Made by a program: the position numbers and the translations under genes
The notes under the pieces: generated by a model
What the model was told of the DNA's origin: nothing
The model's input: the letters and a program-made list of their open reading frames with translations, nothing else
The model's database searches: none
Source: Maridesulfovibrio sp.
GTDB lineage: Bacteria; Desulfobacterota; Desulfovibrionia; Desulfovibrionales; Desulfovibrionaceae
DNA length: 64,000 bases
Direction: 5' to 3'
Assembly: GCF_963676065.1 (NCBI RefSeq)
Contig: NZ_OY780933.1
Span: 558,001-622,000, forward strand
Shown here: piece after piece, positions 3 to 49,140 of the stretch
How the letters are laid out: each line of letters begins with the position of its first letter
Position numbering within the stretch: the first letter of the stretch is position 1

Positions 3-338
3 GCCCAGCTTAAGCAGGTCATTCTCAACCTGCTTACCAATGCGGTGGACGCCATTGAACACAATGGAAAGATCGACATTGAAACTTTTGTTAAGGACGG
101 ACACGTGGGAGTGCGGGTCAGTGATTCCGGCTACGGCATTCCCGAGGAAAACAGAGTTATGCTCTTCGAACCTTTCTTCACCACCAAACAGGTAGGCAAG
201 GGGATCGGCATAGGTCTGTCCACCTGCTATAATATTGTAAGAGAACACAACGGCGAAATTTTAGTGGACAGTGAAGTGGGCAAAGGTTCCAGCTTTACTG
301 TCCTTTTCCATCCCGCAGAGAGATTTGATAATGCCTGA
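3..338 (+). CDS. Sensor histidine kinase, C-terminal ATPase fragment (5' truncated by window edge)
   Basis: The frame is open from the first bases of the window, so only the last ~111 residues are seen. They form a HATPase_c domain. The N box (LNLLTNAVDAIE), G1 box (DSGYGIPEE), F box (LFEPFFTTK) and G2 box (GIGIGLSTCYNIV) appear in canonical order, as in NtrB/PAS-type sensor kinases that partner sigma54 activators. The stop overlaps the start of the response regulator by 8 bp, so the two are translationally coupled and almost certainly a cognate pair. The sensory part lies outside the window, so the signal is unknown. Confidence 0.93.
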   Translation, partial: AQLKQVILNLLTNAVDAIEHNGKIDIETFVKDGHVGVRVSDSGYGIPEENRVMLFEPFFTTKQVGKGIGIGLSTCYNIVREHNGEILVDSEVGKGSSFTVLFHPAERFDNA

Positions 339-1674
339 ACCATACAAAGTACTTATTGTTGACGACGAAGAATCCATACTGAAGCTGCTTAGCAAAGAGC
401 TTGCCGGCCCGGAAAGGATTCTGCATACCGCAAACTGCGCAAAAGCCGCCCGGGAGATGGTTCGCAAGGAACGCTACGAAGTTATTGTCTCCGACATTCG
501 CCTACCGGATGGTGACGGTCTTGAGCTGCTCACCGAGTTCAAGGATATGGAACCTGATGTAGAAGTGATCCTGATCACCGGGCACGGTAATATCGATAAC
601 GCGGTTGAAGCTATACGCATCGGGGCCTACGATTACATAACCAAACCTTTCCGCCTCGACAAAGTCGATCTGGTCGTGGACAGGGCATGGCAAAGAGTCT
701 GTCTGACCCGTGAAAACCGGAGCTATCGCCATTCCCAGCAATCAGATACCACCAGCTCACAACTTGTAGGCAGCTCTACCCCCATCAAGCAGATACGGCA
801 TCTGATCAATAAAGTTGCGCCCACCAAAGTCCCGGTGCTGATTACCGGGGAGTCCGGGGCAGGTAAGGACGTAGTGGCCCACTCCATTCACTGCGCCAGT
901 CAACGGGCCGGTAAACCCATGATCGTCAAAAACTGCGCAACTCTGCAAAAAGAACTTTCACGCAGCGAACTTTTCGGACACACCAAAGGTTCCTTCACCG
1001 GAGCAACGGAAAACTGCGACGGGCTGATGACATTTGCCCACACCGGCACCCTGTTTCTTGATGAAATAGGGGAACTGCCCATGGAAGTGCAGGCATCGCT
1101 GCTGCGCGTGCTGGAATCACACACTTTCCGCCGGGTAGGTGAAAAAGATGAACGCACCGTGGACATCCGCTTCCTTTTTGCCACGAACCGCAACCTTGCC
1201 AAAGAAGTGGAAGAAGGAAGATTCCATGAAGCCCTCTTCCATCGCATCAATGTCTTCAACATCAGCCTTCCGGAACTAAAGGACCGCCGCGAGGACGTGC
1301 CTCTGCTCATAGATTTTTTCATCAACAAACTCGGCTTCCAGATGGGACAGGGCGAATACACCATCAGTGAGCGCGCCATGCAATGCATGCTCTCCTACCA
1401 CTGGCCGGGCAATGTCCGCGAACTGCGCAACGTACTGGAGCGCAGCATTATTCTGGCCGACAACAACACCATCACCTGCGCCTGCCTGCCCAAAGAAATC
1501 GCCGACCAGCCGGAACGTGAAGGAGAAGCGGGAATCCTCTCACTTGAAAGAATGGAGAGGGAGCACATCATCAAGGCGCTCGATTTCTTCAACGGCAATC
1601 GGCAGAAAGCTGCACTGGCACTCGGCATCGGAAGGAAAACCCTTTACCGCAAGATTGATAAATACAATTTATAG
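331..1674 (+). CDS. Sigma54-dependent response regulator (REC-AAA+-Fis HTH)
   Basis: NtrC-family transcriptional activator of 447 residues. The receiver domain (1-~120) has acidic pair D11/D12, phospho-acceptor D55 and K105. The AAA+ domain has Walker A GESGAGKD (173-180), a GSFTGA version of the sigma54-contacting loop (220-225) and Walker B LFLDEIGE (241-248). A Fis-type helix-turn-helix ends the protein (NGNRQKAALALGIGRKTLYRK). I chose the ATG at 331 because the receiver fold begins there and it overlaps the kinase stop; an upstream in-frame start at 271 would add 20 residues inside the kinase gene. A sigma54 promoter lies 1.7 kb downstream at 3410, so this protein is a candidate activator of the alcohol dehydrogenase; that link is inference from proximity. 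Confidence 0.95.
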   Translation: MPEPYKVLIVDDEESILKLLSKELAGPERILHTANCAKAAREMVRKERYEVIVSDIRLPDGDGLELLTEFKDMEPDVEVILITGHGNIDNAVEAIRIGAYDYITKPFRLDKVDLVVDRAWQRVCLTRENRSYRHSQQSDTTSSQLVGSSTPIKQIRHLINKVAPTKVPVLITGESGAGKDVVAHSIHCASQRAGKPMIVKNCATLQKELSRSELFGHTKGSFTGATENCDGLMTFAHTGTLFLDEIGELPMEVQASLLRVLESHTFRRVGEKDERTVDIRFLFATNRNLAKEVEEGRFHEALFHRINVFNISLPELKDRREDVPLLIDFFINKLGFQMGQGEYTISERAMQCMLSYHWPGNVRELRNVLERSIILADNNTITCACLPKEIADQPEREGEAGILSLERMEREHIIKALDFFNGNRQKAALALGIGRKTLYRKIDKYNL

Positions 1675-3045: not shown

Positions 3046-3409
3046 TATAAGCAATGCAAAACAAACTTTTGGACATAACATACATTACAATTGTATACAA
3101 AGAAAACTATTTGATTCCGCAATCAATAAATTAAAAACAACAAAAGCCATGTAAAATAAAATTTTAAACACCATTTCAACACTCGTATATGTCCAAATAA
3201 ACATAAGTTCCATCTGACACACAGCACTACATTACTGGTCCATAATGACACACCAGCCCTTCACCCCCCGCAGCGTAACACTTTTGACACTCTTGTTACA
3301 TTTTTCACATTAAAAAATTCTATTTCAACACAAAAACTGTATCTGAAATGATTCATCGCTACGGGGCCCTCAACCACATAAACAATTGAAATAATGAGTT
3401 TTACACGTT
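3046..3409. other. AT-rich regulatory spacer upstream of the first alcohol dehydrogenase gene
   Basis: No credible gene was found here. It holds an inverted repeat gtaaca-N13-tgttac at 3275-3299, centred about 125 bp upstream of the sigma54 promoter, where an enhancer-binding activator usually binds. The part at ~3110-3245 has patchy similarity to 6645-6775 upstream of the second copy (shared strings such as 'caatcaataaa' versus 'gaatcaataaa', 'accatttc', and 'catctgacacac' versus 'catctgccacac'), suggesting the duplication once included it. Confidence 0.5.
3275..3299. promoter_or_regulatory. Candidate activator-binding inverted repeat (UAS)
   Basis: GTAACA and TGTTAC are perfect reverse complements separated by 13 bp, 110-135 bp upstream of the -24 element. 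Position and symmetry suit an NtrC-type activator site. The activator's identity is not shown by the sequence. Confidence 0.4.
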
Positions 3410-3424
3410 TGGCACACGTCTTGC
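3410..3424 (+). promoter_or_regulatory. Sigma54 (-24/-12) promoter of the first alcohol dehydrogenase gene
   Basis: TGGCAC-acgtc-TTGC matches the RpoN consensus exactly, with 10 bp between the invariant GG and GC. It lies 76 bp before the ATG, leaving a leader of about 60-65 nt. The corresponding site before copy 2 keeps TTGC but has cttaaa in place of TGGCAC. Confidence 0.9.
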
Positions 3425-3499
3425 CTTATAGAAAGCGTTAATAAGTACACGACTAGGCCCAACCTTCAATAACCTCTTAAGCTTCAAGGATGGTCTCAA

Positions 3500-4681
3500 A
3501 TGGCAGTACGTGAACAAGTAAATGGTTTTTTTATTCCCAGTGTTACCCTTATCGGTATTGGCGCCCACAAAGAAATTCCCGCACGCATTAAGGCTCTCGG
3601 CGGTAAAAAACCCCTGCTCGTAACAGACAAGGGTATTACCGGAGTCGGCATCACCCAGCAGATCGTAGACATTTTGAAAGCTGAAGGTATGGACTGCATA
3701 GTCTATGACGAAACCATTCCCAACCCCACTGACAAGAACGTCGCTGACGGTGTAAAAGCTTATCAGGACAATGGTTGTGACTCACTGATCACTCTCGGTG
3801 GCGGTAGCTCCCATGACTGCGGTAAAGGCGTCGGCCTCGTTGTTGCCAACGGCGGCAAGATCCACGACTTTGAAGGTGTAGACAAATCTACCAAACCCAT
3901 GCCCCCGTACGTAGCAGTTAACACTACTGCCGGTACTGCTTCTGAAATGACCCGTTTCTGTATCATCACTGATACTTCACGCAAAGTTAAAATGGCTATC
4001 GTTGACTGGCGCGTTACCCCCGGCATCGCACTTGATGATCCGCTGCTGATGATGGGCATGCCTCCGGCACTGACCGCAGCTACCGGTATGGACGCTCTGA
4101 CTCACTCCGTTGAAGCATGGGTTTCCACCATCGCTACCCCCATCACTGACGCTTGTGCTGAAAAATCTATCCGTCTGATCAATACTTTCCTGCGTCGCGC
4201 AGTTGCCAACGGACAGGACATCGAAGCACGTGAAGGTATGTGTTACGCACAGTATCTCGGTGGTATGGCCTTTAACAACGCATCTCTTGGTCACGTACAC
4301 GCCATGGCTCACCAGCTTGGTGGTTTCTATGACCTGCCTCACGGCGAATGTAACGCAATCCTCCTGCCCCACGTTGAGCAGCACAACCTGATTGCAAACG
4401 TTGACCGTTTCGCCACCATGGCTGAATGGCTCGGCGTGAACACCGACGGTATGGCTCCTCGTGTTGCTGCTGACGCCGCACTCGACGCTATCCGCCAGCT
4501 CTCCGCTGACGTTGGTATTCCTTCCGGTCTCATCGCTCTCGGCGAAAAATACGGCAAGAAGGTATCCGAAAAGGATATCCCGACTATGACAGAAAACGCT
4601 CAGAAAGATGCCTGCGGTCTCACCAACCCCAGAATGATGACTGACGAAGCTGTCGCAGCAATCTATAAGGCTGCCTTATAG
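3500..4681 (+). CDS. adh: Iron-containing alcohol dehydrogenase, copy 1
   Basis: 393-residue group III (Fe) NAD-dependent alcohol dehydrogenase, the abundant Desulfovibrio type that interconverts ethanol or other short alcohols with aldehydes in the cytoplasm. GGGSSHDCGK (100-109) binds NAD. The metal ligands by family alignment are D198, H202, H267 and H281 (TGMDALTH, GHVHAMAH, LPHGEC). The ribosome site is AAGGATGG. Transcription should come from the sigma54 promoter at 3410. It differs from copy 2 at six residues only: T229K, H291Y, N300H, A319S, P320K and V322D (copy 1 to copy 2). Codon use is strongly biased (Gly GGT, Thr ACT/ACC), as in highly expressed genes. Confidence 0.96.
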   Translation: MAVREQVNGFFIPSVTLIGIGAHKEIPARIKALGGKKPLLVTDKGITGVGITQQIVDILKAEGMDCIVYDETIPNPTDKNVADGVKAYQDNGCDSLITLGGGSSHDCGKGVGLVVANGGKIHDFEGVDKSTKPMPPYVAVNTTAGTASEMTRFCIITDTSRKVKMAIVDWRVTPGIALDDPLLMMGMPPALTAATGMDALTHSVEAWVSTIATPITDACAEKSIRLINTFLRRAVANGQDIEAREGMCYAQYLGGMAFNNASLGHVHAMAHQLGGFYDLPHGECNAILLPHVEQHNLIANVDRFATMAEWLGVNTDGMAPRVAADAALDAIRQLSADVGIPSGLIALGEKYGKKVSEKDIPTMTENAQKDACGLTNPRMMTDEAVAAIYKAAL

Positions 4682-4698
4682 CATAAAAGTTCCGTCCC

Positions 4699-4724
4699 GC
4701 CTGCGGCACCTGCAAGCCGCAGGC
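4699..4724 (+). terminator. Hairpin after adh copy 1
   Basis: A 9-bp GC-rich stem (gcctgcggc / gccgcaggc) with an 8-base loop sits 18 bp after the stop. There is no T run, so it may be an mRNA-stabilising 3' stem rather than a classic terminator. Copy 2 has the same stem, extended to 14 bp. Confidence 0.5.
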
Positions 4725-4744
4725 AGGATGTACAAATGTTTTGT

Positions 4745-5111
4745 CCGCAGGCATACGGATCATTTTGCATAACAGAGGTCATGGATTGGCAAAGATCTAA
4801 TCCGTTTGCCTGTAGACTTCCGGAAAAGGCGCGCAGGTGGAGCTGCAAACTACATTAATCCGGACAGACAAAGTATTTACCGGGGGGGATTTTAGTCCCC
4901 CCAGAAATTTTCTCCATGCAGGCCCGGTTGCTGTTTACGCCAATTAACAAAGCATACGGACCAATGCATATGTTTCAATCACGTGCGGCCCTAACAGGCC
5001 GTAGCCCCCGGCACCTTGGAAACAAATGCAATCGGGCCTGCTCTTTCCTCCTCCATCTCAGTAATATTGCTAAAGCCGTAATTATTACGAAACTAGGCAA
5101 TATAAAATCGA
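4745..5111. other. Gene-less stretch downstream of adh copy 1, with a block shared with copy 2
   Basis: No convincing gene was found. It contains a G7/C6 hairpin (4882-4902) and a ~70-bp block (4977-5045) that reappears downstream of copy 2 at 8285-8363 with substitutions and small indels. The shared core includes 'accttggaaac' and 'aatgcaatcgggcctgctc'. About 230 bp at 4745-4975 are absent from copy 2. Short open frames here look non-coding. Confidence 0.5.
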
Positions 5112-5143
5112 AACCCCCGGCAACTGGATAGTTGCCGGGGGTT
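5112..5143 (-). terminator. Terminator of the minus-strand operon 6403-5169
   Basis: A perfect 13-bp inverted repeat (aacccccggcaac / gttgccgggggtt) with a 7-base loop lies 26 bp beyond the stop at 5169. On the minus strand it is followed by gattttat. Confidence 0.75.
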
Positions 5144-5168
5144 AACTAATACTGATTAAATGTAAAAA

Positions 5169-6161
5169 TTAATCATGAATATCCACATAAACCAAAGTCT
5201 GGTTTAAAAGCTGGTATGCAATTTCACCGAAAGTTATCGGCCCGACAAAAGGATCTGTCTTTTTGCCTTCCAGTTCAGAATAAAGATAATTAAGGATACA
5301 ATTACAGGAAAAAGCGATCTTCTTGCCTGCAACGTTATTTTCCATAAGCTGCTGACTGAATGCTCCAGCATAGTCGGAAAGAGGCTTGGCATGTTTATAG
5401 CGGACACCGGAAAAGACCGGTGCGTAAAAACTGACTCCATCTTCAGGTGACACAGCCTGAAAACTGATATTAATCAGCGCCCCGTAATAATCAGCAACAA
5501 GAGGCAGCTTCGTATCAATATTTTTCTCTGTGATATATTCCGCGAAATTCTTTTTAACCCCGTCAACCATGACAGAATCAGTTGCGAAAGTATCCTTATT
5601 GAATGTCAAAATATCGCCGTCTCCCTGTTCAAAGATGTTGACAATCCCAACATCAATCGTCTTGCCGGGGATTAAATCCACATGCATTACCAGGGCTTCG
5701 TCTTCATAACTGTTGCCGGTAGCACCGCTGAAAACCTTGGGTTTCACCTTACCCAAATCATCCAGCAACACACCGGAAATCCAACCCACCAGCGGCTGGG
5801 ATCCGAAATCTTTATAATTCGGCGCATTGAGAGCAAAAGAAACATGTGCGGGGCTTGAAGCAGGGATTATTATAAAGCTGAATCCACCGTCACCGGCATC
5901 CAGGTATACATTTCCAAGTTCGTCCTGATTATATTTTTTTAAAGTGACAGAAGCAGCAACATCAGAAATATCAGTCACAAAAAGTTGCTCCTGAGTAACA
6001 ACCCCTCCTTTGGAAGAAGAAACAAAATAAGGAATGGTTCCTCCAATCCACTTACCCTTTGGTAGTTGAGCCAGAAGACCTTCGTCCCCAGCGATTAAAA
6101 GAATTTTTCCCTCAGAAATAAGATCAACAGTTTCTTTGACGCTACGAAGCACTTGATTCAT
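5169..6161 (-). CDS. Uncharacterised protein with a FIST-C-like end
   Basis: 330 residues, with no signal peptide or membrane segment. I do not recognise a named enzyme. The C-terminus (about 283-328) reads FSCNCILNYLY...FVGPITFGEIAYQLLNQTLVYVD, which resembles the end of FIST_C sensory domains (SCAGR...TFGEIAP...NQTL), so it may be a ligand-binding relative. A strong GGAGGGGG ribosome site precedes the ATG. It follows the 77-residue gene after 8 bp, forming a two-gene operon between the two adh copies and opposite to them. A link to alcohol metabolism is suggested only by position. Confidence 0.8.
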   Translation of the reverse strand: MNQVLRSVKETVDLISEGKILLIAGDEGLLAQLPKGKWIGGTIPYFVSSSKGGVVTQEQLFVTDISDVAASVTLKKYNQDELGNVYLDAGDGGFSFIIIPASSPAHVSFALNAPNYKDFGSQPLVGWISGVLLDDLGKVKPKVFSGATGNSYEDEALVMHVDLIPGKTIDVGIVNIFEQGDGDILTFNKDTFATDSVMVDGVKKNFAEYITEKNIDTKLPLVADYYGALINISFQAVSPEDGVSFYAPVFSGVRYKHAKPLSDYAGAFSQQLMENNVAGKKIAFSCNCILNYLYSELEGKKTDPFVGPITFGEIAYQLLNQTLVYVDIHD

Positions 6162-6169
6162 ACCCCCTC

Positions 6170-6403
6170 CTATCCGAACATGGTTTGCAGATCTTCCTTA
6201 GCTGAAGCATTATCTGCATTTTTGGTATAAATAGCATGAAGTTCAGCAACAGCCTTGGACACATTCTGCGGAGAGCTGTCCGCCTTAACAGTGCGCATAA
6301 GACGTCCCAACAGAATTTTTGCAGCAAGAAACTTTAGCGTATAAGTTTTTTTGCCAGTGACAATCTCCTTCCACCTAGAATTTGAACTCGGAGGAACACC
6401 CAT
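6170..6403 (-). CDS. Small uncharacterised protein
   Basis: 77 residues, basic N-terminal half (SRWKEIVTGKKTYTLKFLAAKILLGRLMR) followed by an alanine- and asparagine-rich helix-like tail. No family is recognised. The ATG at 6403 is preceded at good spacing by GGAGG; the in-frame GTG 15 bp upstream would consume that site, so 6403 is preferred. It is the first gene of a two-gene operon with the FIST-like gene. Confidence 0.7.
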   Translation of the reverse strand: MGVPPSSNSRWKEIVTGKKTYTLKFLAAKILLGRLMRTVKADSSPQNVSKAVAELHAIYTKNADNASAKEDLQTMFG

Positions 6404-7038
6404 GAATAAAACCTCCACTTTAACTTTAATAGATACAGCTTATGAAGTTAACAAAAAACAAATAAACACTTTATTCTGACAACTATATGCACTTTAACAC
6501 TTGTCACTTTTCTTGTCTCGCTATTTTAAAAAAAAATTATCCATTAATATATTAGGCGCTGACCCACCGATTCTAAACAGGTTGTAAGACATTTAATATA
6601 TTTTAATTATCTTCATAACCATTAGATACATCATTGATTTTATTTTGATTAACGAATCAATAAAAAATATTACAATAAAAAATGAAAAACCATTTCTACA
6701 TCAACCTTTTTCGTGTATATAAACTTACAGCATACCCAGATTGCATCTGCCACACGTTACTATGCAGGTGATCAACCTTGAACATCTTCTAATAAAAGAC
6801 AGTAAGGTAGTAAGGGGATGTTTTTGTTGCCATTATTTTGCTTTTTAATATTAGAAAATAAAATAAATGTATCGCAAACGACCTTGAACAAATACACTCA
6901 GGTACCAATTGTTTTTTGGTTAAACATATAAATTAACGTGTTTTTTGTCTTAAAGACTCTTGCCTTATAGAAAGCGTTAATAAGTACACGACTAGGCCCA
7001 ACCTTCAATAACCTCTTAAGCTAAAAGGATGGTTTCAA
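6404..7038. other. AT-rich intergenic region upstream of adh copy 2
   Basis: No gene was seen. It separates the divergent minus-strand operon from adh copy 2. About 6645-6775 weakly resembles 3110-3245 upstream of copy 1, whereas 6775-6956 is unrelated to the copy 1 promoter region. From 6957 onward the leader is again nearly identical to copy 1 (3419-3482). The -12 TTGC (6960-6963) survives without a -24 element, and the gtaaca/tgttac repeat is absent. I see no convincing sigma70 promoter for copy 2. Confidence 0.5.
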
Positions 7039-8220
7039 ATGGCAGTACGTGAACAAGTAAATGGTTTTTTTATTCCCAGTGTTACCCTTATCGGTATTGG
7101 CGCGCACAAAGAAATCCCCGCACGCATCAAGGCTCTCGGCGGTAAAAAACCCCTGCTCGTAACAGACAAGGGTATTACCGGAGTCGGCATCACCCAGCAG
7201 ATCGTAGACATTTTGAAAGCTGAAGGTATGGACTGCATAGTCTATGACGAAACCATTCCCAACCCCACTGACAAGAACGTCGCTGACGGTGTAAAAGCTT
7301 ATCAGGACAATGGTTGTGACTCACTGATCACTCTCGGTGGCGGTAGCTCCCATGACTGCGGTAAAGGCGTCGGCCTCGTTGTTGCCAACGGCGGCAAGAT
7401 CCACGACTTTGAAGGTGTAGACAAATCTACCAAACCCATGCCCCCGTACGTAGCAGTTAACACTACTGCCGGTACTGCTTCTGAAATGACCCGTTTCTGT
7501 ATCATCACTGATACTTCACGCAAAGTTAAAATGGCTATCGTTGACTGGCGCGTTACCCCCGGCATCGCACTTGATGATCCGCTGCTGATGATGGGCATGC
7601 CTCCGGCACTGACCGCAGCTACCGGTATGGATGCTCTGACTCACTCCGTTGAAGCATGGGTTTCCACCATCGCGACCCCCATCACTGACGCTTGTGCTGA
7701 AAAATCTATCCGTCTGATCAATAAATTCCTGCGTCGCGCAGTTGCCAACGGACAGGACATCGAAGCACGCGAAGGCATGTGTTACGCACAGTATCTCGGT
7801 GGTATGGCCTTTAACAACGCATCTCTTGGTCACGTACACGCCATGGCTCACCAGCTTGGTGGTTTCTATGACCTGCCTCACGGCGAATGCAACGCTATTC
7901 TCCTGCCCTACGTTGAGCAGCACAACCTGATTGCACACGTAGACCGTTTCGCCACCATGGCTGAATGGCTCGGTGTGAACACTGACGGAATGTCTAAGCG
8001 TGATGCAGCTGACGCAGCACTGGATGCTATCCGCCAGCTCTCCGCTGACGTTGGTATTCCTTCCGGCCTCATCGCTCTCGGCGAAAAATACGGCAAGAAG
8101 GTTTCCGAAAAGGATATCCCGACTATGACAGAAAACGCTCAGAAAGATGCCTGCGGTCTCACCAACCCCAGAATGATGACTGACGAAGCTGTCGCAGCAA
8201 TCTATAAGGCTGCCTTATAG
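7039..8220 (+). CDS. adh: Iron-containing alcohol dehydrogenase, copy 2
   Basis: 393-residue paralogue of copy 1, with 387 identical residues. The NAD motif GGGSSHDCGK (100-109) and metal ligands D198, H202, H267 and H281 are unchanged. The six substitutions lie outside the catalytic motifs, and three cluster at 319-322, where the DNA also differs most. The 64-bp leader and ribosome site (AAAAGGATGG) match copy 1 almost exactly, but the sigma54 -24 box is missing, so expression must rely on another promoter, on read-through, or be low. It probably encodes an active enzyme. Confidence 0.95.
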   Translation: MAVREQVNGFFIPSVTLIGIGAHKEIPARIKALGGKKPLLVTDKGITGVGITQQIVDILKAEGMDCIVYDETIPNPTDKNVADGVKAYQDNGCDSLITLGGGSSHDCGKGVGLVVANGGKIHDFEGVDKSTKPMPPYVAVNTTAGTASEMTRFCIITDTSRKVKMAIVDWRVTPGIALDDPLLMMGMPPALTAATGMDALTHSVEAWVSTIATPITDACAEKSIRLINKFLRRAVANGQDIEAREGMCYAQYLGGMAFNNASLGHVHAMAHQLGGFYDLPHGECNAILLPYVEQHNLIAHVDRFATMAEWLGVNTDGMSKRDAADAALDAIRQLSADVGIPSGLIALGEKYGKKVSEKDIPTMTENAQKDACGLTNPRMMTDEAVAAIYKAAL

Positions 8221-8230
8221 CATAAAACCC

Positions 8231-8266
8231 ATCCTGCCTGCGGCTTTACGGTGCCGCAGGCAGGAT
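8231..8266 (+). terminator. Hairpin after adh copy 2
   Basis: A perfect 14-bp stem (atcctgcctgcggc / gccgcaggcaggat) with an 8-base loop starts 10 bp after the stop. No T run follows, so it may be a 3' stabiliser or a Rho-independent-like stem. Confidence 0.55.
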
Positions 8267-8498
8267 GTACAACTGTATTTACGGATCACTACCACATGCG
8301 GCTCTAATAGACCGCCCCCACCCCCGGTACCTTGGAAACCAATGCAATCGGGCCTGCTCCTCAACCCTGCCCTCAATTCTGACATCTTCTTTTTTTTAAT
8401 TTCTGTATCTTTTCATCTACTGCATAACTGTCTATTGTGCTTGACTCATAATATCTCTACTACTTCCTTTAAAAATATTCTTATCCAAGGAAAGCACA

Positions 8499-15040: not shown

Positions 15041-17194
15041 GTGTTTAAAAAAATGCGCATAGGGACAAAAATCGCGATCAGCATCAGCCTTCTGATGATC
15101 ATTATTTTCGGTTTATTTTCAGTAATAACCGCAAGTAAGAGCAGAGACAATTCAATCAGGCAGGCTGAGCTTTTGGCTAATGAGATGGCCGGGCGTTACG
15201 GAAATGAAGTAAAGGCCGTAATTGAAAAAGCACTTGATGCCTCATGGTCCGGAGCTGCTGCGGTAGAAAGTATAACCAGCTTCAAAGACAACGTGGACCG
15301 TGAAATGGTCAGCGACTTTATCAGGACATTGACCGAAACCAATCCTATGTTTTTCGGGACCCAGATTGTCCTCGAACCTAACAAGCTGGATGGCCGGGAT
15401 GCCTACTTCATGGGCAACGACAAATACGGTCCCAAAGGGGAATACGGTCAGTACGGTTGGCACGAGAACGGTGAGTGGAAAATCACGGAAATGCACAAAA
15501 ACGACCCGAACAATACCCGTGCATGGTACATGATACCCCGTGACACCAAAAAAGCGGTCCTCACCGAACCCTATACGACCTCAATTGTTCCCGAAGTTAT
15601 GGCTACTGTCAGTGTACCCATTCTCCAAAATGGGAATTTTATAGGTGTAGTCGGCATCGACTTTGTACTCGGGGCATTTGATAAAATGACCGAGAACATT
15701 CATCCGATGGGCACAGGGTACGCTTTCATCACTTCCAATAAAGGTTACTGTGTCGCACACCCGAACAAAGACCTAACCACCAAGAATATAACCGAAGCCT
15801 TCCCGGAAAAAGACCGGGGAGCAATCCTGGATGCTATCGAAAACGGTAAACGCTTTCACAAAAAGATAGTTTCCCCCCTGGACGGCAAAGAGTACTACTA
15901 CGTATTTGAGCCCATTGTAATTTCCGGAACCTCCACCCCGTGGTCCATTGGACTGGCAATTCCCACAGACAGAATTTATGCCGAGGCCAATGCTTTTCTC
16001 CAACAAACCTTACTCATGTCCGCCCTTGCCCTACTACTGGTTGTGGCTGTGGTTCTCCTCATAGCCCGCTCCATCTCCAAACCCATCGGGGCAATGGTTG
16101 ATCATGCGCAGAAAGTTGCCGAAGGCGATTTTGGAAGCAAAGTTGACCGTAATATCTTTAGCGGTGAGCTGCTGACGCTGCACGACGTCCTGCACTCAAT
16201 GGTGCAAACCCTTGTTGAATTGATCTCCACAGCAGAAGAAAAATCCAAAGAAGCCGAAGAGCAGACCCTGGCAGCGAATAAGGCCCTTGAAGAAGCCAGT
16301 CAGGCAAAAGAGGAAGCCGACAGAGCCAAGGCCGAAGGAATGCTCCATGCTGCAAGTCAATTGGAAGAGATCGTGGCGCAGGTGACTTCCGCTTCAGAAA
16401 AACTCTCCGCCCAGATTGAAGAATCCGCGCAAGGTTCAGAAATCCAGCGCGAGCGCACATCCGAATCCGCAACCGCCATGGAAGAAATGAACGCATCAGT
16501 GCTCGAAGTAGCGCAGAATGCTTCGCAAGCGGCGGAAAGTGCTATGGATGCTAAAAGAAACGCTCAAGAGGGCGGTGGTATTGTAGCAGATGTGGTCTCT
16601 TCAATCGATTCTGTCAATCAGGCTTCAAGCAAAATGGTCAGCGGACTTAATGAACTTGGGACACAGGCCGAAGGTATCTCGCAGGTTATCACAGTGATCA
16701 CCGATATTGCCGACCAGACCAACCTGCTGGCCTTGAATGCGGCCATTGAAGCTGCCCGTGCCGGTGAAGCAGGACGAGGATTCGCAGTCGTTGCAGATGA
16801 GGTCCGTAAACTTGCCGAAAAAACCATGCAGGCAACTCAGGAAGTCGAGCAGGCCGTTCACGCTATTCAGACTGAAACCCGACGGAATATCGACGAAATG
16901 AACAACGCAGCGGGCATGGTTTCCAAAAGTACGGAATACGCCGGAAAGGCAGGAAAAAGCCTTGAAACCATCGTTGAACTTGTCGATTCCACTGCGGATC
17001 AGGTTAGGGCAATTGCTACTGCCAGTGAAGAACAGTCCGCGGCCAGTGAACAGATCAACCGGGGAACAGAAGAGGTTAACCGAATCGCCATGGAAACGGC
17101 CGAAGCAATGCAGCTCTCCAAGGATGTGGTATCAGATCTTTCAAGGCTGTCTGAAGAGCTTCAAAACCTTATCAATGGACTCAAAGACGTATAA
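15041..17194 (+). CDS. Methyl-accepting chemotaxis protein with dCache sensor
   Basis: 717 residues. Order: TM1 (~10-30), a periplasmic double Cache domain (~35-310, with [17 protein letters not shown] and [18 protein letters not shown]), TM2 (~325-345), HAMP, a long coiled coil, and the cytoplasmic signalling domain with the conserved hairpin [20 protein letters not shown] near 556-575. It senses a small molecule outside the membrane and controls CheA. The GTG start is chosen for its ideal GGAGGAG site; ATG 15053 is the alternative. There is no C-terminal CheR-tether pentapeptide. It is transcribed alone. Confidence 0.94.
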
Positions 17195-47046: not shown

Positions 47047-49140
47047 CTATGAATTTTTCAAGTCTTCAATCAGATTATTCAGCATATTGGCAAGTTCCGA
47101 CAGATTGGCCATGGCTTCTGCGGACTGTTCCATCGCGTTGAAGTTTTCGTCAGCAATGCGGTTGATTTCTGAAGTTGACATATTAATTTCCTCTGAAGCT
47201 GCGCTCTGCTCTTCCGCAGCCGTCGCAATCGAGCGGACCTGCTCCGCAACCAGATCAATGATGTCAAGGATTGAAGTCAATGCTTCCCCGGCTTCATTTA
47301 CCAATGTCGTCGTAGAATCGACCATCTCGGCCGTTTCGGACATGGTATTGATCGAATTTCTTGAAGACTGCTGAATGGAACCGATAGCCTCGCCTACTTC
47401 AGATGTCGCGCTAACTGTCTTTTCTGCGAGCTTGCGCACTTCATCAGCTACAACAGCGAAACCGCGTCCAGCTTCCCCGGCCCGGGCTGCTTCAATGGCC
47501 GCATTCAGCGCCAACAGGTTCGTCTGATCAGCAATATCTGTGATAACGCTCATGACGCTGCTGATTGATTCTGCTTTTTCGCCCAACTGCCCCATTTCAG
47601 TGCTCAGCTTTTCTGATTCAACTTTAAGGTTACCTACAGAGGTTACCACTTTCTTTACAATTTCTGAACCGTGAACAGCTTCGCTCTTAGCCCGATCAGC
47701 TTCTTCTGAGCTTTTCGAGGCATTGGATGCAACCTCAAGAACGGTGGCATTCATCTCTTCCATAGCGGTGGCATTCTCGGCTGCCCGTTCCCGCTGCATT
47801 TCAGAACCGTTTCTCGATTCTTCGACATTTGCGGAAAGCTCGGTGGAAGACGAAGAGATACGCTCCACTATTTCCTCAAGTTGACCGGCGGCCTGCATCA
47901 TGCCTTCGCGCTTAGCGCTTTCAGCTCTGCGAGTGGCTTCTTCAGCCTCGCCCAGAGCTTCCTCGGCCTGAACAGTTTTTTCCTCAGCTTCACGGGTCTT
48001 TTCATCAGCAAGGGAAATTGTCTTAACAAGCTCCCGCGTCATTGATTGCAGGTTATCCAACAGCTCTCGCAGTTCGGCGCGGTAAGACGCTTCTTCAGGC
48101 TCTGCATTGTAATTTCCTGCGGCAATCTCCTTGGCAAAACCGCCCATGGCATGAATTGGGCGCACAAGGCTGCGGTTAACCATCGCTGCTCCTAAAGCTC
48201 CGAAGAGAAGAGCCGCCACAGCTGCAATCATCAGCATAGTTTTATTTGCTTCCCTGGATGCCATATAAATTTCATCATGAGGAAGAAAGGCTATAAGCGT
48301 CCAGCCGGTTTCCTTGGATCTGTAAACCTCTGCGGAAAATTTATTTCCCTTAAAATCAAGAGAACCTAACCAGGCCTCCTTGGAATTATAAGCCTCTTTC
48401 AGTGCTGTGTTATCTATTTCATTAACTTTCTTAAAATTATTTTCCGGAGTCTTGGGGTCCGCCAAAATTGTTCCGTCACCTTGAACGAGAACGACAAAAC
48501 CTGTTTCACCGATATTAAGATTGTTAATAATTTTTGTAAGGTCTCCAAGTGAAATATCCACCGCGGAAACACCAATAAAATTTCCGCTATTGTTTCTTAT
48601 CTTGGTCACATACCCGATATTGGGAAAGCCCTCGGTTGTCATATACGCAGAAAGCAATGACGACTCCTTAGAAGAAGTCTTACCTTCCTTATACCAAGGC
48701 CTTTTACGCGGATCATAATCATTTTTTAATGTGTCGGAGCCGTCCTGTGTGTATCCACCATCTTCAAAGCCCAGATAAACATAGGCAAAAGCAGGATTGG
48801 CATCCATCAGATTATTTGCCAGCCGGTTGACCTTGATTTCTGAAGGATCTGTTGCAAACTGGGCAGGTTTTGATGGACCTTCCAATTCAAAATACTTAGT
48901 CCACTTACCTATAGCATTCTTTGTTTCATCCAGTTCAGCCACGAACCTGCTGACGTTCTCAGCTTTCTTCAATATTTCTGCAATATAGTTATTAATTAAC
49001 TTAAGTTCCTGACTTGCAGTTTTCCGGTATGAATCCTCGGCAGTACTGTCAAACTGCATAGAAACAGTAAACATTACAACTGCCACAGAAATTATCATGG
49101 GCAACACAATAGCTAAGATCATCCTTGTCCTGATTCTCAC
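47047..49140 (-). CDS. Methyl-accepting chemotaxis protein with dCache sensor
   Basis: 697 residues. TM1 (~7-27), double Cache domain (~35-295; YDPRKRPWYKEGKTSSKES, FIGVSAVDISLGDL), TM2 (~300-320), HAMP, coiled coil and signalling domain with [20 protein letters not shown] near 535-555. GGGAGAAG fits the GTG start. The signalling part is very like that of the receptor at 15041, but the sensor regions differ, so they probably detect different ligands. No CheR pentapeptide at the end. Confidence 0.94.
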   Translation of the reverse strand: MRIRTRMILAIVLPMIISVAVVMFTVSMQFDSTAEDSYRKTASQELKLINNYIAEILKKAENVSRFVAELDETKNAIGKWTKYFELEGPSKPAQFATDPSEIKVNRLANNLMDANPAFAYVYLGFEDGGYTQDGSDTLKNDYDPRKRPWYKEGKTSSKESSLLSAYMTTEGFPNIGYVTKIRNNSGNFIGVSAVDISLGDLTKIINNLNIGETGFVVLVQGDGTILADPKTPENNFKKVNEIDNTALKEAYNSKEAWLGSLDFKGNKFSAEVYRSKETGWTLIAFLPHDEIYMASREANKTMLMIAAVAALLFGALGAAMVNRSLVRPIHAMGGFAKEIAAGNYNAEPEEASYRAELRELLDNLQSMTRELVKTISLADEKTREAEEKTVQAEEALGEAEEATRRAESAKREGMMQAAGQLEEIVERISSSSTELSANVEESRNGSEMQRERAAENATAMEEMNATVLEVASNASKSSEEADRAKSEAVHGSEIVKKVVTSVGNLKVESEKLSTEMGQLGEKAESISSVMSVITDIADQTNLLALNAAIEAARAGEAGRGFAVVADEVRKLAEKTVSATSEVGEAIGSIQQSSRNSINTMSETAEMVDSTTTLVNEAGEALTSILDIIDLVAEQVRSIATAAEEQSAASEEINMSTSEINRIADENFNAMEQSAEAMANLSELANMLNNLIEDLKNS

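Follow-up and report, generated by a model that had tools for sequence, protein, structure and literature searches.

Two near-identical alcohol dehydrogenase genes in a Maridesulfovibrio sp., one with and one without a -24 promoter element: a probable older paralogue with a homogenised coding region

Introduction

Near-identical paralogues that lie side by side are readily taken for recent duplicates, and the point where their identity stops for the breakpoint of the duplication. We examined a pair of this kind in the sulfate-reducing bacterium Maridesulfovibrio sp. (genome G000), where two near-identical alcohol dehydrogenase (adh) genes stand next to each other in a window of 64,000 nt (the whole stretch of DNA analysed) and their identity ends inside a sigma54-type promoter. 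How did the second copy come to have the leader and the enzyme of the first, but not its -24 box, and what does this suggest about its origin and control? An initial annotation of the sequence had proposed that the duplicated or converted block ends mid-promoter, and that copy 2 is either differently controlled or a silent sequence reservoir.

Results and Discussion

A sigma54-type promoter at copy 1 and its remnant at copy 2

Copy 1 (3500..4681, plus strand) encodes an iron-containing alcohol dehydrogenase of 393 aa with the N- and C-terminal Fe-ADH domains (PF00465, 155 bits; PF25137, 222 bits), and its protein has an 81–95% match at the same locus in 16/16 genus relatives. Copy 2 (7039..8220, plus strand), also of 393 aa, differs at six residues (K229, Y291, H300, S319, K320, D322 in copy 2), and its Fe-ADH assignment rests on the resulting 98.5% protein identity. 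No named NCBIfam equivalog was matched by either protein; the best model, L-threonine dehydrogenase, scored 483 (copy 1) and 485 bits (copy 2) with a cut-off of 581. A candidate activator of copy 1, an NtrC-type response regulator (receiver, sigma54 AAA+ and HTH_8 domains; Pfam PF00158, PF00072, PF02954), is encoded at 331..1674 on the plus strand. Its start at 331 was picked to match the length in relatives (the ORF list has 271, and the Pfam scan was run on 271–1674), and it is a neighbour of the locus at 82–96% identity in 15/16 genus relatives and at 62% in G001.

The perfect RpoN-type promoter described earlier for copy 1 is borne out: TGGCACACGTCTTGC (3410..3424, plus strand) fits the TGGCAC-N5-TTGC core at 10/10 positions, and no other perfect site occurs on either strand of the window. 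At the copy-1 locus a GG-N10-GC pair lies 85–107 bases 5′ of the ATG in 17/17 genus genomes examined, with promoter scores of 10/10 in 11, 9/10 in five and 8/10 in one. As the GG and GC cores are present and the genome encodes both the candidate activator and sigma54 (one Sigma54_DBD match, 207 bits), this is a predicted RpoN promoter. The homologous place before copy 2, CTTAAAGACTCTTGC (6949..6963, plus strand), reads CTTAAA-N5-TTGC; as the initial annotation had it, the -24 half is gone but TTGC and the leader remain, with 5/10 core positions matched and no GG. A relative with both -24 boxes intact was sought, and the only comparable one, G010 (a second species of the genus), also has a second adh without -24; no GG-N10-GC stands at the equivalent place before the second adh of either genome. 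The -24/-12 difference between the copies is not a chance feature, because all 17 genomes have the pair at the copy-1 locus and neither second copy has it. A sequencing slip is unlikely, since the difference spans many bases and the genome is a single contig at 99.98% completeness.

Could a -24/-12 site that has degenerated or moved still place copy 2 under RpoN? The retained TTGC and leader and the partial survival of upstream elements speak for this, as does TGTCACTTTTCTTGT, an 8/10 match ~540 bp before the ATG. This site, however, is without the GG and GC cores, and ~11% of shuffles reach its score; the best site of the G010 copy (7/10) is attained by 82% of shuffles, and GG-N10-GC is retained in all 17 copy-1 promoters. 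Between 6404 and 7038 no GG-N10-GC core was found on the coding strand of G000, where the only pair is on the minus strand (5/10), and the sole pair farther upstream of the G010 second copy lies ~240 bp before its start codon (5/10). We therefore regard RpoN dependence of copy 2 as very unlikely. A scan of 6400–7060 for consensus sigma70 promoters gave five sites against 4.0 expected by chance, none of them convincing.

Upstream similarity extends past the identity edge

Ungapped identity between the copies begins at 3419/6958, within the promoter spacer, as had been noted from the sequence. The first 65 bases (6958..7022, plus strand) are the same as copy 1 (3419–3483) and form the start of what we read as a homogenised block. 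In that sense a block does end mid-promoter; for the duplicated block the proposal is not supported, since upstream similarity runs to about -395.

Two elements mark the copy-1 control region. TTGAT-N6-ATCAA (3111..3126, plus strand) is present in 7/7 copy-1 upstreams compared (of 17 genomes), at -388 to -393. A putative enhancer-like direct repeat, TCTGACACAC ... TGACACAC, 31 bp apart (3213..3253, plus strand), is likewise found in 7/7, although in G010 the last base of the second repeat is T; it is a candidate site for the regulator. Upstream of copy 2, a profile match delineates a diverged counterpart (6644..6769, plus strand) with TTGAT-N6-ATCAA (6645–6660) and TCTGCCACAC (6746–6755). The window has exactly two occurrences of TTGAT-N6-ATCAA, at -389 relative to copy 1 and at -394 relative to copy 2.

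A profile of the copy-1 upstreams of seven species scored 33.4 on the second copy of G000 and 32.0 on that of G010 (0/60 shuffles each), with 23.6 as the best score on 203 other AT-rich segments. Rebuilt without G000 and G010, it gave 34.1 and 35.4, respectively (0/400 shuffles each). This wider profile, which starts at -430 and is scored differently, was the second test made; a narrower nhmmer profile (-310 to -95) that preceded it scored -3.0 bits on copy 2, under many shuffles, and 1.2 bits on the G010 second copy, attained by 3/300 shuffles. Pairwise upstream alignments reached 1/200 shuffles for copy 2 vs copy 1 and 18, 57 and 172/200 for the other three pairings, and half-tests of the copy-2 upstream alone were weak (6/400 and 12/400). 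On this similarity, the DNA upstream of copy 2 is a diverged copy-1 control region that reaches about -395.

A mosaic of identity between the copies

From 3419 to the stop codon the copies differ by 32 mismatches and share 387/393 residues; at the nucleotide level the genes, linked 3.5 kb apart in direct orientation, are 97.5% identical. The mismatches are very unevenly spread. Copy-specific SNPs had been reported at 4093 and 4400–4480, and we find 4093 plus a cluster of 14 at 4397–4486; the copies can also be told apart at 4185–4186. Codons 31–197 are identical, and an identical run of 503 nt was matched by 0/20000 random placements, whereas codons 284–331 form an island with a dS of 0.447 between the G000 copies. 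Informative sites in the island group by paralogue (nine; genome three, cross zero)—though it was picked by mismatch density and so has fewer genome-type sites—and those outside it group by genome (61; paralogue one, cross two). The island residues S-K-D are also present in five copy-1 orthologues of more distant species, so some of the grouping by paralogue may reflect ancestral state. Gene conversion would leave long identical tracts around an unconverted island, with grouping by genome in the tracts and by paralogue in the island, and this is the pattern observed. The sharp identity edge in the promoter is best read as the edge of later homogenisation.

The high nucleotide identity, the sharp edge and the whole-gene tree, in which the G000 copies group together (100/100 support) and the second copies are not united, would also be expected of a tandem duplication that arose recently and only in this species, with its left breakpoint in the promoter at 3419 and an unrelated G010 copy. 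However, no diverged control region would be expected past the breakpoint of a fresh duplicate, its mismatches would not be so unevenly distributed, and both genomes share a divergent DUF6976 neighbour. Taken together, these points make a recent duplication distinctly unlikely.

A counterpart in a second species

Among 17 genus genomes, a comparable second adh occurs in only G010 besides G000; the other 15 are without a second copy at ≥93%. In G010 the pair is unlinked and 86.5% identical, the second copy sitting elsewhere in the genome, divergent from a DUF6976 gene of the same family that is 92% identical to that in the window. It has no -24/-12, its leader has diverged (that of copy 2 in G000 is of the copy-1 type), and it is intact with a dN/dS of 0.03–0.05, i.e., under strong purifying selection. 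This combination of location, shared neighbour, missing promoter and selection suggests that copy 2 is probably an old paralogue expressed from another promoter, and not a silent reservoir.

As a silent reservoir, copy 2 would serve only as donor or recipient in conversion, in keeping with its mosaic identity with copy 1 and the failure to recognise a promoter before it. Yet the G010 copy, though unlinked and not recently homogenised, has stayed intact at ~14% nucleotide divergence, 21/29 of the G000 coding differences are synonymous, and copy 2 retains its ribosome-binding region and hairpin. We consider this half of the earlier proposal the least probable explanation. Its other half, an almost identical enzyme under different control, is the likeliest reading of 387 shared residues and an absent -24 box.

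A further alternative, that a DUF6976–adh2 unit arrived from another lineage and was later homogenised with the resident gene, draws on the different locations in the two species, the lack of such a second copy from most of the genus and the resemblance of S-K-D to residues of more distant species. Both the coding and the upstream sequence fall inside the genus range, and we judge a foreign origin unlikely.

We instead favour, as a probable account, that copy 2 is an older paralogue, duplicated with its control region, later homogenised in its coding part and probably RpoN-independent. Specifically, a sigma54-driven adh would have been duplicated together with its entire control region and set divergent to the DUF6976 operon, where the control region drifted until neither the -24 box nor the direct-repeat enhancer was left; transcription would now probably proceed without RpoN, from a putative promoter within 6404–7038. 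With the copies 3.5 kb apart, we infer that gene conversion, with copy 1 as the probable donor, overwrote most of the coding sequence as well as the leader, giving the pair the look of a fresh duplicate; it would have halted where the control regions were too diverged, so that the edge of identity came to lie within the former promoter.

The divergent DUF6976 operon

Opposite copy 2 lie a DUF6976 gene (5169..6161, minus strand; 330 aa; PF22396, 450 bits) and, upstream of it and probably on the same transcript, a 77-aa ORF (6170..6403, minus strand) that matched no Pfam family and whose homologue adjoins DUF6976 in 14/15 DUF6976 neighbourhoods examined outside the window. A block at 6513..6544 (no strand assigned), TTGTCTCGC...TTTTAAAAAAAA, probably contains the operon promoter. 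It is common to the DUF6976 upstreams of G003 (0/200 shuffles), a genome lacking a second adh at that place, and G010 (2/500), and was not seen in those of G015 (9/200, another stretch) and G013 (146/200). The predicted DUF6976 structure (mean pLDDT 70.5) had no PDB match at E ≤0.001, the best being a chain of an SCF-FBOX22 complex (E 0.07). FBXO22 contains FIST domains, which agrees with FIST_C matches under the cut-off in two DUF6976 relatives but is not proof, as the window protein has no such match; DUF6976 is perhaps weakly FIST-like and a ligand sensor. Our literature search on DUF6976 found no paper. Tentatively, and with considerable doubt, DUF6976, the 77-aa protein encoded beside it and the divergent adh2 may form a small re-wired cassette, in which the enzyme has moved from a two-component sigma54 circuit to a different sensor and gene conversion keeps it equal to the master copy, sparing only the control region.

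Relation to known systems

By analogy, copy 1 fits the type of sigma54 circuit known from Desulfovibrio vulgaris Hildenborough, in which, according to excerpts of the published reports, DVU2394 regulates the DVU2405 operon (Rajeev 2011; Kazakov 2015; PMC4641369, PMC3333781). The likeness is one of gene content: an Fe-ADH gene with a -24/-12 promoter has genes for a histidine kinase and an NtrC-type response regulator as neighbours. Unlike here, the Hildenborough adh, as the excerpts describe it, is the first gene of an operon that also contains heterodisulfide reductase genes; the next gene in our window encodes DUF6976 (an ATP-grasp gene in 14/16 genus relatives), and a second adh without -24 is present. 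In the same excerpts the validated Hildenborough regulator motif is reported only in D. vulgaris Miyazaki (PMC4641369, PMC3333781), and the motif of the present genus may therefore differ.

For the pair itself, the nearest parallel is tufA/tufB of Salmonella, which excerpts of the source describe as evolving in concert by gene conversion, 762 kb apart and inverted (PMC5485169). In both cases the two genes are long and near-identical, identity runs in contiguous tracts, and conversion is blocked at the end of similarity. Unlike tufA/tufB as so described, the adh copies are close and direct, an unconverted island is left, and the mechanism is read from sequence. Our search for papers combining Desulfovibrio, gene conversion, alcohol dehydrogenase and duplication found none. 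The case is one of ordinary paralogue divergence plus concerted evolution, and the findings on the adh pair overturn no known rule. It does offer a compact natural example of paralogues homogenised in their coding parts as their control regions drift apart, with a contrast between two species of one genus (linked pair 97.5%, unlinked pair 86.5%), and a caution against taking every identity edge within a promoter for the breakpoint of a duplication. The case also suggests that some species of sulfate reducers can keep part of their alcohol metabolism free of RpoN control.

A structured element downstream of copy 1

Copy 1 is followed by a conserved structured element (4690..5045, plus strand) with a hairpin, a multi-stem part and a long-range stem, in which 17/68 pairs changed on both sides (0/500 shuffles, the structure being derived from the same alignment). 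Its model, R1, matches 14/17 genus genomes, nine of which were used in building it. An Rfam scan gave no match at the gathering threshold and three below it (E 0.08–0.9), and 6S RNA, located at 1159078, was ruled out as its identity. We also rejected Campbell-type integration of a circular DUF6976–adh2 element by a single crossover, as copy 1 is followed by the full copy-1 downstream element and not by G010-like sequence. Downstream of copy 2 (8221..8359, plus strand), comparison with copy 1 shows the hairpin and the last ~65 nt retained and the middle of the element deleted; the covarying RNA-like element accompanies copy 1 only.

Two alcohol dehydrogenase copies and their promoter sites

Two near-identical genes for a 393-residue iron-containing alcohol dehydrogenase (adh) lie on the + strand at 3500-4681 (copy 1) and 7039-8220 (copy 2). 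The copy-1 promoter site (3410-3424; TGGCACACGTCTTGC) is the sole perfect TGGCAC-N5-TTGC on either strand of the whole 64 kb, and the equivalent place in copy 2 (6949-6963) reads CTTAAAGACTCTTGC. Ungapped identity between the copies begins at 3419/6958; from there to the stop codon we count 32 mismatches, and six of the 393 residues are not shared by the two proteins. The initial annotation described both sites and the identity edge accurately, and its observation that copy 2 has no −24 half is real; its interpretation we partly recast. We view copy 2, from the sequence comparisons below, as an older paralogue in divergent arrangement; its control region would have drifted out of sigma54 recognition, and conversion would have kept its enzyme like that of copy 1. 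All components of this system are of known kinds.

At the copy-1 locus, GG-N10-GC stands 85-107 bases 5' of the start codon in 17/17 genus genomes, with promoter scores of 10/10 in 11, 9/10 in five and 8/10 in one. Second copies at least 93% identical to copy 1 occur only in the window's own genome (G000) and in one relative, G010; more distant second matches are found in G015 (74%) and G001 (45%). The G010 second copy sits on a separate contig from its first copy, in divergent orientation to a DUF6976 gene that has 92% identity with the one in the window. A relative with −24 boxes in both copies had been named as evidence against promoter loss; the G010 second copy is likewise without −24 and −12. 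At eight other DUF6976 loci of the genus (one each in G015, G014, G003, G008 and G013, three in G001), no adh of at least 55% identity was found within the stretch surveyed at each.

Homology beyond the identity edge

Among the 17 copy-1 upstream regions, the seven closest have two features in common: TTGAT-N6-ATCAA, between −388 and −393, and a direct repeat whose members, TCTGACACAC and TGACACAY, stand near −287 and −254. Upstream of copy 2, TTGAT-N6-ATCAA recurs at −394 and TCTGCCACAC stands at −293; the second member of the repeat is unrecognisable there. In window positions, the palindrome occupies 3111-3126 (copy 1) and 6645-6660 (copy 2).

A narrower nhmmer profile, which came first, gave the copy-2 region −3.0 bits and the G010 second-copy region 1.2 bits, the latter equalled by 3 of 300 shuffles. 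The wide profile that came second (the seven copy-1 regions, −430 to −85) scored them at 33.4 and 32.0, against maxima of 24.7 and 25.1, respectively, among 60 dinucleotide shuffles and a best of 23.6 among 203 other AT-rich segments; a 204th, which reached 32.0, is the G010 region itself. A version of this profile that omitted G000 and G010 scored 34.1 on copy 2 and 35.4 on the G010 region, reached by none of 400 shuffles in either case. The halves of the copy-2 region are weak when taken alone (12 and 6 of 400 shuffles), and among four pairwise upstream comparisons only copy 2 versus copy 1 stands out (1 of 200 shuffles; the others 18, 57 and 172 of 200). Contrary to the proposal that the duplicated block stops in mid-promoter, homology under the wide profile goes on past 3419/6958, and on balance the control region was probably part of the duplication, this edge not being the duplication's end.

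Downstream, ~510 bases separate adh from an ATP-grasp gene in the close relatives G003 and G007. The first ~370 of these are found after copy 1 and the last ~190 after copy 2, the parts overlapping by ~65 bases (4980-5043 and 8293-8359); after copy 2 the first hairpin is kept and the middle is lost.

Uneven divergence of the coding sequences

Mismatches between the copies are distributed very unevenly, i.e., an identical run spans 503 bases (0 of 20,000 random placements), and dS is 0.447 in codons 284-331 (the mismatch-rich island) and 0 in codons 31-197. Among the four adh genes of G000 and G010, informative sites in the island sort nine by paralogue, three by genome and none crosswise, where the low genome-type count is partly built in because the island was picked by mismatch density, leaving nine versus zero crosswise unaffected; outside it, they sort 1, 61 and 2. 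Across 20 genes compared, H300 is confined to the two second copies, and S319-K320-D322 occurs also in five other copy-1 genes. The tree groups the two G000 copies with 100/100 support and does not unite the second copies; both features are expected if conversion overwrote most of copy 2. Identity is 97.5% for the linked G000 pair and 86.5% for the unlinked G010 pair. Since the copy-2 leader is of copy-1 type and that of the G010 second copy has diverged, copy 1 would be the likelier donor.

The suggestion that copy 2 is a silent reservoir is opposed by several traits: the G010 second copy has an intact reading frame and dN/dS of 0.03-0.05 against three others, 21 of 29 coding differences between the G000 copies are synonymous, and copy 2 retains the ribosome-binding region as well as the hairpin that follows its stop codon. 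Because its upstream neighbour is divergently oriented, copy 2 requires a promoter of its own; we infer that this lies within 6404-7038. A sigma70 scan upstream of copy 2 stayed at chance level and found no promoter, and the best sigma54-like string there lacks the core dinucleotides.

Genome setting and neighbouring genes

The G000 genome is one contig (4.23 Mb, 99.98% complete; window, 558001-622000) with one sigma54 gene. Genes for an ErcA-like iron alcohol dehydrogenase, a histidine kinase and an NtrC-type response regulator lie 5' of copy 1. The ErcA-like gene (G000:C1:555997-557106; L056:7994-9136) starts ~2.0 kb left of the window; its best NCBIfam model is regulatory protein ErcA (406 bits, below the cut-off of 550), and its product is perhaps a sensor of the adh circuit. 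Homologues of this gene (54-91% identity) and of the regulator precede adh in unchanged order in 16/16 genus relatives, with an ORF of 395-425 aa between them at the kinase's place. The D. vulgaris regulator DVU2394 reportedly controls an operon headed by the adh DVU2405 (Rajeev 2011, PMC3333781), as a table in Kazakov 2015 (PMC4641369) also gives; copy 1 with its upstream regulator genes resembles this arrangement and, by analogy, would fit a DVU2394-type circuit.

DUF6976 (PF22396) and its 77-aa partner ORF occupy 5169-6403 on the − strand. FIST_C matches fall below cut-off in two relatives, and a match to an SCF-FBOX22 complex chain is weak (E 0.07); there is a hint of a FIST-like sensor. 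In Desulfobacterales GWB2_56_26 and Desulfopila aestuarii, both from outside the order (L135:5254-5919; L168:7501-8493), DUF6976 stands directly 3' of an adh relative and shares its strand. These are two of the 79 loci, part of which lie on short contigs; the association may hence be functional.

A conserved structured element after copy 1

A conserved, structured RNA-like element follows copy 1 at 4690-5045 (+ strand). Its structure, derived from the same alignment of 10 species on which it was scored, has 68 predicted pairs. Both partners have changed in 17 of these, and none of 500 shuffles covaries as strongly. A covariance model finds the element once each in 14 of 17 genus genomes (nine built the model, five are independent), in every case ~70 bases past the copy-1 gene; no second copy is followed by it. 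A 149-genome family sample under stricter filters gave seven matches, all in this genus; searching 119 family genomes by plain DNA sequence turned up, in addition, one match of 28 bases in another genus (E 4e-4). At the gathering threshold, Rfam holds no match to the element. It may represent a 3'-UTR element or small RNA, possibly undescribed. Elsewhere in the window, a 140-nt inverted repeat (79% complementary) has its arms 30.6 kb apart, at 16685-16824 and 47417-47556.
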